57,633 nt of DNA from Streptomyces celluloflavus (GTDB lineage Bacteria > Actinomycetota > Actinomycetes > Streptomycetales > Streptomycetaceae), in contig JOEL01000040.1 of assembly GCA_000720995.1 (NCBI GenBank), positions 1 to 57,633 of the forward strand, given 5' to 3'. Of this stretch, positions 47,429-48,960 are shown piece by piece. The notes below the pieces were generated by a model. It saw only the letters and a list, made by a program, of their open reading frames with translations, made no database searches and was not told the DNA's origin. Position numbers and translations under genes: made by a program. The first letter of the stretch is position 1; each line of letters starts with the position of its first letter.

Positions 47429-47450
47429 CGCCGGTCCGTCCGATGCAGAA

Positions 47451-47486
47451 ACGATGCCCCCGTGAGCGTGTGCTTGCGGGGGCATC
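47451..47486 (+). terminator. Terminator hairpin after the RND gene
   Basis: CGATGCCCCCG (47451-47461) and CGGGGGCATCG (47476-47486) are perfect complements with a 14-base loop, 22 bases beyond the RND stop. It separates the peptide-methyltransferase operon from upstream transcription. Confidence 0.8.
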
Positions 47487-47577
47487 GCGCTGGGCATGCC
47501 CGCTCCGGACACGGCACGGCGGGCGCCCGGCGCCCGGCCACGGCCGACGCTCAAGACCACCAACGGAGGGGCTGTTC

Positions 47578-47688
47578 ATGGGGAAGCACGGTGACGGCAA
47601 GGGCGGCGCGGACGGCGACAAGCAGCAGAGCCCGAAGGAGTCCGACGGCCGGTGGACCAAGCCGGTGACCAACCCGCCCAAGAAGTAG
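47578..47688 (+). CDS. Candidate RiPP precursor peptide (imiditide-like)
   Basis: A 36-residue peptide, about a third charged (seven Lys, four Asp, one each of Glu, Arg and His) and Gly/Pro-rich, with no cysteines and no membrane helix. It starts MGKHGDGKGGADGDK, and its second half contains SDGRWTKPVTNPPKK. It has three Asp-Gly steps (Asp6, Asp12, Asp23), the sequence context where an Asp ester most readily closes to an aspartimide. ATG 47578 has GGAGGGG seven bases upstream, a better ribosome site than most genes here. The methyltransferase gene begins 11 bases after its stop with its own GGGAG. This matches the peptide-plus-PIMT-like-methyltransferase layout of imiditides. Asp23 in SDGRW is my guess for the modified residue. 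Confidence 0.75.
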   Translation: MGKHGDGKGGADGDKQQSPKESDGRWTKPVTNPPKK

Positions 47689-47699
47689 GGAGCGACGCC

Positions 47700-48803
47700 A
47701 TGTCCTCGCCGAGCCGGCTGGTGGAGATCCTGCGCAACAAGGGCGCCCTGGCGCCGGAGTGGGCGCCGACCGTGGCGGCGGTCGACCGCGCCCGCTTCGT
47801 ACCCGACACGTTCGAGGTGGGCGACCGTACCGTCTCCCGGTCCGCGGACGAGGCGGAGTGGCGCCGCATGGTTTACGCCGACCTGCCGCTCATCACCCAG
47901 CACAACGACGGTGACGCCACGGACGGCCGGGTCGCCTTCCCCACCTGTGCGACGTCGATGCCCTCCCTCATGCTCGCCATGGCCGCGATCGTCCGGGACG
48001 GCGACGCGGTACTGGAGATCGGGACGGGCACCGGCTACCACTCCGCGTGGCTCGCGCACCGGCTCGGCGAGGACCGCATCACCACGATCGAAACCGACAA
48101 GGCGCTGTACGACATCGCCCGGCACAACCTGCGCCGCGCCGGATTCCGCCCGCACACGGTGTGCGGCGACGGCCTGGCGGGCGTTCCCGGACGGGCGCCC
48201 TACGACCGCACCATCGCCACCTGCACGGTCCGCGACATCCCGTACGCCTGGGTGGCGCAGAGCGCCCAGGGGGGCACCATCCTCACCCCCTGGGGCTCGT
48301 CCTTCCACTCCTACTCGTTCGCGACCCTGACCGTCCGCGACAGGCGGGCCACCGGCCGCTTCTCCGGCCGCCCGGCCTTCATGTGGGCGCGCCAGCAGCG
48401 CCGCTCCTACGGCCGCATCCGGGACTGGTACCACGGTGAGCGGGGCGACCTCGCGACGACCACGATCGACCCGCGGATCCTGGAGGAGGACCACCACGCC
48501 CGCTTCGCCGTCGGACTGCGGGTCCGGGACGCCTGGCCGCTGCTGAGCCCCGCCGACGACGGCAGCGACGAGGCCACCTACTGGCTCTTCGACGACGCCC
48601 GCACCTCCTGGGCCACCGTCGAGTACGTCCCCGGCCGCGACCGCTACGAGACGGAACAGCACGGCCCCCGCCGCCTCTGGGACGAGGTGGCCGCCGCCTA
48701 CCGCGCCTGGACCGACGCGGGCAGCCCGCCGCGCGACCGCTACGGCATCACCGTCACCGCGGACGGCCAGCGCGTATGGCTGGACGACCCGCCGCGGAGC
48801 TGA
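47700..48803 (+). CDS. PIMT-like O-methyltransferase of RiPP type
   Basis: A 367-residue class I methyltransferase related to protein-L-isoaspartate O-methyltransferase. A PIMT-like N-terminus (residues 1-100, with ARFVPDTFEVG and FPTCATSMPSLMLAMAA) leads to motif I VLEIGTGTGYHSAWLA (104-119) and post-I TTIETDKALYDIARHNL. It is about 140 residues longer than housekeeping PIMT, and the extension ends in LWDEVAAAYRAW...DRYGITVTADGQRVWLDDP, the kind of C-terminal block known from RiPP-associated methyltransferases (lanthipeptide, graspetide, imiditide). These esterify a specific Asp of the peptide, which then closes to aspartimide. ATG 47700 with GGGAG upstream. It is coupled to the 36-codon peptide. 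A housekeeping PIMT is less likely because of the extension and the peptide. Confidence 0.85.
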   Translation: MSSPSRLVEILRNKGALAPEWAPTVAAVDRARFVPDTFEVGDRTVSRSADEAEWRRMVYADLPLITQHNDGDATDGRVAFPTCATSMPSLMLAMAAIVRDGDAVLEIGTGTGYHSAWLAHRLGEDRITTIETDKALYDIARHNLRRAGFRPHTVCGDGLAGVPGRAPYDRTIATCTVRDIPYAWVAQSAQGGTILTPWGSSFHSYSFATLTVRDRRATGRFSGRPAFMWARQQRRSYGRIRDWYHGERGDLATTTIDPRILEEDHHARFAVGLRVRDAWPLLSPADDGSDEATYWLFDDARTSWATVEYVPGRDRYETEQHGPRRLWDEVAAAYRAWTDAGSPPRDRYGITVTADGQRVWLDDPPRS

Positions 48804-48896
48804 CCGCGGATCCCGGCACGCCGCCGGGCCCGGACCGGCCCGTCCCGGCGGCGCGCCGGTGCACCGCTCGCCGTCATCCCGGCGCCACGCCGAAAA

Positions 48897-48939
48897 GGGG
48901 CCGGGGCCCGCGCCCGTATCCAGCGCGGGCCCCGGCCCC
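48897..48939. terminator. Strong bidirectional terminator hairpin
   Basis: The arms 48897-48913 (GGGGCCGGGGCCCGCGC) and 48923-48939 are perfect complements around nine bases, between the convergent methyltransferase (ends 48803) and nadA (ends 48961) genes. Confidence 0.85.
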
Positions 48940-48960
48940 TCACACGTATCCCCCGCGCGC

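Follow-up and report, generated by a model that had tools for sequence, protein, structure and literature searches.

A conserved linear peptide gene and a two-domain PIMT homologue form a probable imiditide cluster in Streptomyces celluloflavus

The window analysed here is a 57,633-nucleotide stretch of Streptomyces celluloflavus DNA (GCA_000720995.1, contig JOEL01000040.1). In it, the gene of a conserved linear peptide rich in Gly, Lys, Asp and Pro stands directly before the gene of a two-domain homologue of protein isoaspartyl methyltransferase (PIMT), and the two are inherited together. We conclude that the pair is very probably a gene cluster of a type I pamtide, or imiditide, a class of ribosomally synthesised and post-translationally modified peptides (RiPPs) that was reportedly first described in 2023 by Cao et al. 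An imiditide gene pair had been proposed for this locus in an original prediction made from the letters alone, and the proposal stands, with the modification itself as its predicted part. The precursor lies directly beside the PIMT homologue, with no primary RiPP enzyme in the ten flanking genes scanned (37-54 kb); the precursor belongs to the expected short type (about 45 residues, with abundant Gly, Pro and Asp (Lys) and an Asp that is conserved close to a Gly or Pro); and the enzyme carries an extra C-terminal domain of more than 100 residues together with a WXXXGXP motif. The reference make-up of the precursors is that given in the available portions of PMC10787088 and PMC13001092, the latter of which also describes imiditides as a two-gene arrangement.

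The peptide open reading frame (ORF) runs from an ATG at 47578 to a stop codon at 47686-47688 and is followed, after 11 bases, by the ATG of the 367-codon methyltransferase ORF at 47700, so that the coordinates, frame and gap were all predicted correctly. Purine-rich, Shine-Dalgarno-like sequences precede both start codons (GGAGG for the peptide, GGAG for the methyltransferase). The peptide of 36 residues (7 Gly, 7 Lys, 4 Asp, 4 Pro and only two Thr) is linear, contains no cysteine, and has the three Asp-Gly steps reported for it earlier, D6-G7, D12-G13 and D23-G24. The peptide ORF is a real gene. Among seven same-site sequences the ratio of nonsynonymous to synonymous changes (dN/dS) was 0.24-0.79 and below 1 in 21 of 21 pairs, each of which holds few changes; weaker coding evidence comes from the variable sites at the three codon positions (3, 9 and 9; codons 2-31 of 11 sequences), where a third-position excess is not clear. 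A chance ORF was considered as well and was dropped, because a precursor-first profile search ties the peptide to the enzyme.

This search used a profile built from 13 peptides of the window's precursor family (family A) and was run, irrespective of the enzyme, in 392 genomes of the genus. It gave 27 matches in 26 genomes, 18 strong and nine weak. All 18 strong matches (E at most 1.4e-15; the window is one of them) adjoin the enzyme or its remnant, the enzyme being partly hidden by N at L107, broken beside an intact precursor at L110, and frameshifted at L103. An enzyme was found beside none of the nine weak matches within the fetched stretches, and these matches were taken as chance. The same profile gave 14 strong matches in 293 genomes of the order, eight of them new and all eight beside the enzyme. 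In both searches together, the precursor stands directly before the methyltransferase or its remnant in 26/26 genomes with a strong match, the window's own included. The possibility left by the original prediction, a peptide unconserved next to methyltransferase homologues, is thus not what was found.

The survey that started from the enzyme covered 47 loci (7/7 and 29 of about 150 matches listed, plus 11 of 17 other matches in the window's own genome). A precursor of one of four families stood directly ahead of the enzyme at 34 of them: family A, family B (HSG.PDT..[SG]DG[HK]R), family C (GKPD....DGH) or family D (QDDSDSGNKHGGGGSDEGGNT.DG). The other 13 comprise 11 own-genome copies and two further loci, L066 and L070. 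The precursor type follows the enzyme tree, from which L082-L085 and L126 were excluded; L126 has a family-A precursor next to an enzyme only 37% identical to that of the window. Two of the own-genome copies, L076 and L077, have other candidate precursors and make two further candidate two-gene pairs. Following the initial survey, L058 (judged to be the same genome as L004) was left out of all comparisons; alignments A1-A3 did not include L057 and L062, nor A1 the ten family-D precursors, and L103, L107, L110, L126 and L157-L159 were excluded from the peptide/enzyme pair counts.

The methyltransferase exceeds the listed PIMT chains (208-235 residues) by 132-159 residues, in agreement with the predicted excess of about 140. 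Residues V104, E106, G108, T111 and G112 of its S-adenosylmethionine (SAM) motif are invariant in 22/22 aligned enzymes. Among the solved chains listed, 22/22 align only inside residues 40-206 and none in the C-terminal block, so that no sequence match to a housekeeping PIMT reaches the block for which such an alignment had been envisaged. By structure, ten of the 12 other PIMT/PCMT matches stop by model residue 236 and two stop at 296 and 304, whereas the match to the two-domain Thermotoga PIMT 1DL5, which is also the best solved relative by sequence, extends to model residue 363. The best family model is TIGR04188 (ATP-grasp-associated), matching over nearly the whole length of the enzyme. 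The view that the C-terminal block is the mark of an imiditide held only in part: the domain and the WXXXGXP motif are present, but both are reported for RiPP-associated PIMT homologues in the available portion of PMC13001092, and the motif recurs in five of 11 other enzyme copies of the same genome. Hence, they mark the enzyme group and not imiditides alone.

All three Asp-Gly steps had been proposed as candidate sites, and all are present, but they are not equal. In a short gapped alignment that joins families A, B and C (22 precursors), residues M1, G2, D23, G24 and P33 are invariant, and D23-G24 is the only Asp-Gly step invariant in 22/22; Asp23 is therefore the predicted site. D12 is present in 13 of 24 family-A sequences and replaced by Glu in the other 11, and for this reason D12-G13 was set aside. 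D23-G24 is consequently the best candidate, and D6-G7 a less likely one. In the proposed mechanism, the enzyme would methylate the side chain of Asp23 using SAM, and the amide nitrogen of Gly24 would attack the resulting ester, with methanol leaving and a five-membered aspartimide forming; the aspartimide would slowly open to isoAsp and Asp. The C-terminal domain would select the linear peptide.

Some observations weigh against this reading in whole or in part. As to the site, D6 and D14 are as invariant inside family A as D23 (each 24/24), residues 1-26 are more alike than those from 27 to the end in divergent pairs (0.80 vs 0.67), and the n+1 residue can vary, being His in NmaA (PMC13001092, available portion), which makes D14-K15 possible. 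A peptide of the same class that is modified at Asp6 or Asp14, in its more conserved N-terminal part, is nevertheless rather unlikely: in families B and C no Asp lines up with either residue, in the same short alignment in which D23-G24 is matched throughout. The rule of a conserved Asp near a conserved Pro or Gly, given in the available portion of PMC10787088, fits D23, but D6 too. As to the class, two close enzyme relatives lack an intact precursor: at L070 it is truncated, and at L066 (4998-6122, oriented) none was found and the start of the enzyme overlaps the stop of the upstream ORF. Moreover, the enzyme scores 305 bits against a TIGR04188 cut-off of 380.

A further difficulty concerns recognition. 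Charge-charge docking of precursor and enzyme is suggested in the available portions of PMC13001092 and PMC10787088, the former reporting an acidic enzyme loop for NmaM. In the corresponding stretch, which we placed at residues 281-295 by our own alignment and not from NmaM, the window pair fits such pairing (peptide +3, stretch -4), and so does L076 with the signs reversed (precursor -4, stretch +1). However, both partners are acidic in all ten family-D pairs (precursors -4 to -6, stretches -1 to -3) and at L060 and L064 (precursors -3 and -4, stretches -5 and -4). Charge pairing was therefore not upheld as a general rule; electrostatic docking may contribute in this enzyme group but is probably not the whole rule.

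Two other explanations of the pair were weighed against the imiditide assignment. It is very improbable that the enzyme is a protein-repair PIMT that carries an additional domain, next to an unrelated or regulatory small gene: although the catalytic domain has the PIMT fold and 1DL5 is called a PIMT, the best PIMT equivalog score is 89 bits against a cut-off of 188 (all such cut-offs lie far above the enzyme), the protein is unlike a canonical repair PIMT, a single domain of about 210-235 residues scoring above that cut-off, its own genome holds 18 matches of the family, partial ones counted, and the precursor accompanies the enzyme in all strong-match genomes and tracks its tree. There is equally little to suggest that the pair tailors a larger, graspetide-like RiPP made with other enzymes elsewhere, the linear peptide not being the final substrate; TIGR04188 is associated with ATP-grasp enzymes and some other own-genome copies stand immediately after ORFs whose last residues are NPNGQW or NPGGQW, which we take to be ATP-grasp ends, but no ATP-grasp enzyme was found among the ten flanking genes, the identified recurring neighbours of 19 relatives are DUF6879 and helix-turn-helix (HTH)/DUF5753 genes, and the two Thr of the peptide are unlike Thr/Asp cross-linked graspetide cores.

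Returning to the imiditide pair, the precursor changes more slowly than its enzyme. Within family A, precursors resemble each other more closely than their enzymes do in 251/276 pairs, and in 213/213 pairs with enzymes less than 65% identical (means 0.77 vs 0.52); the pairs are not independent, and membership of the family had been decided in part by the likeness of the precursors, a bias towards well-conserved precursors. The argument is therefore carried by families B and D, each a single group of the enzyme tree, where the precursor is more alike in 14/15 pairs (0.80 vs 0.70) and in 45/45 pairs (0.92 vs 0.73), respectively. RiPP cores are often more variable than their enzymes. A precursor that changes more slowly runs against this usual pattern and hence hints at a constrained role; conservation this strong is suggestive of a physiological target that constrains the peptide, and not of a diversifying weapon.

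The positions of the pair and of its borders are collected in Table 1.

Table 1. Features of the gene pair and its borders in the window.
Feature	Positions	Strand	Basis
Stable hairpin 3' of the RND gene, upstream border of the pair; probable RND terminator	47452..47487	+	Folding vs shuffles
Precursor gene with ribosome-binding region (ORF 47578-47688), MGKHGDGKGGADGDKQQSPKESDGRWTKPVTNPPKK	47560..47688	+	24 family-A sequences compared; profile searches
Asp23-Gly24 codons, predicted methylation and aspartimide site	47644..47649	+	22/22 in A, B, C; D23 24/24 in A
PIMT-like aspartyl O-methyltransferase (PAMT), 367 aa	47700..48803	+	Sequence, domain-model and structure comparison
SAM-binding motif VLEIGTGTG of the methyltransferase	48009..48035	+	Invariant residues; role by homology
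Acidic stretch ADDGSDEA, C-terminal domain; proposed counterpart of the NmaM acidic loop	48552..48575	+	Match to NmaM by description only
WXXXGXP motif (WTDAGSP, residues 337-343)	48708..48728	+	Alignment; motif named in available portion of PMC13001092
Long GC-rich hairpin between methyltransferase and convergent nadA; probable shared terminator	48896..48940		Folding vs shuffles

The hairpins said to border the pair both fold far better than shuffled sequences (z -3.4 for 47429-47500 and -5.1 for 48885-48960), and the upstream one is present in eight of ten same-site sequences, the window counted. Their role as terminators is probable rather than certain, because a simple terminator scan, which requires a T-run, found none after either hairpin. 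No sigma-70-like promoter was found in a promoter scan, and the good expression ascribed to the peptide gene in the original prediction thus gained no support. Among the ten flanking genes, those on the 5' side encode an ATP-binding cassette (ABC) transporter, PspA, a PspA-associated protein, a histidine kinase, a response regulator and an AcrB-like resistance-nodulation-division (RND) transporter, and those on the 3' side NadA, a protein of iron-sulphur biosynthesis, a further one that matches no Pfam family and a PfkB kinase; no RiPP enzyme other than the methyltransferase is among them, as had been claimed. No protease or exporter gene belongs to the pair itself, and the RND transporter gene also stands in genomes without the pair.

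An enzyme at least 81% identical occurs at ten other loci (L001, L002, L003, L055, L056, L057, L097, L104, L122 and L123), and all ten have the pair 3' of the same RND gene; at six of them the stretch extends as far as nadA, which is present each time. No RND or nadA match was found in the fetched stretches of relatives with enzymes at most 57% identical. In further genomes of the genus, 17 nadA loci were compared and the enzyme was found at none; at ten of these the RND gene faces nadA with 61-607 bases between alignment ends, versus 1,539 in the window, and at seven the RND gene is not in the stretch. In one clade, the pair is thus an extra unit that separates the RND gene from nadA, and other clades carry it at different sites; both genes were gained together at the present site, or lost together elsewhere. 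Family A was found only in the window's genus, in 14/293 genomes (1/9 genera) of the order sample and 2/394 genomes (1/137 genera) of the class sample, the window's genome counted in each.

Some loci carry more than one pair. In two genomes, at L007 (L161 is apparently the same contig) and L160, a family-B precursor and enzyme come first, and a family-A precursor, again with an enzyme of its own, directly after them. At L064 (3706-3819, +, and 4859-4990, -, in an oriented copy), a family-A pair is next to another pair, encoded on the other strand, whose precursor, MGKHEKPPPDLGKGKPPPGNSDGQVPKPEPGEGEHRK, again contains S-D-G. By clustering, genes for a DUF6879 protein and an HTH_31/DUF5753 protein are recurrent neighbours of the pair at L059, L061, L062, L063, L068, L069 and L071, which are the six family-B loci and one of family A, the Pfam identification resting on L059, L062, L063 and L069; genes of this kind may be frequent in the genus.

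The closest known systems are the type I pamtides SpaA-SpaM of Streptomyces sparsogenes and NmaA-NmaM of Nonomuraea maritima, with which the window pair shares the two genes, a Streptomyces host, a short precursor that is linear, charged and rich in Gly, Pro, Asp and Lys, and a PIMT homologue with the extra domain and WXXXGXP. The likeness of SpaA and NmaA to the window peptide is one of described make-up; NmaA has His at n+1 where the predicted site here has Gly, and some relatives of the window pair depart from the charge-pairing rule. Type II pamtides (cysimiditides) share the two genes and the enzyme group but have a CxxCxGxG tetracysteine zinc ribbon, which the window peptide cannot have because it contains no cysteine. 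The homologous methyltransferases of graspimiditides, lassimiditides and lanthimiditides (TIGR04188, TIGR04364) act on peptides cyclised by other enzymes, none of which is encoded in the ten flanking genes; the same holds for the cluster ATP-grasp enzyme of graspimiditide (graspetide group 13). Thermotoga maritima 1DL5 has both a catalytic and a C-terminal domain, while canonical PIMTs (3LBF, 1JG1) share the catalytic domain, have no C-terminal one and repair isoAsp.

The two-gene arrangement, the chemistry and the names are already published, with more than 1,500 clusters having a PIMT homologue as primary enzyme in the available portion of PMC10787088 and 1,414 type I members in that of PMC13001092, and the window locus may be among them. 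The slower-changing peptide, the charge-pairing exceptions, the tandem pairs and the recurring regulator neighbours do not appear in those portions of either paper. Because in three families the enzyme changes faster than its peptide, pairs of different families stand in tandem in some genomes and one family lies beside DUF6879 and HTH/DUF5753 genes, we tentatively raise the possibility, still a doubtful one, that imiditides of this kind are conserved physiological peptides (a signal, a regulator or a protein-binding factor) and not diversifying antibiotics. Linking aspartimide RiPPs to function is called the bigger challenge in the available portion of PMC13001092. Family A would offer a clean test system for imiditide function, with one peptide, one enzyme and one best target residue, with related genomes that have or lack the pair at a mapped site, and with a conservation that points to a constrained target.
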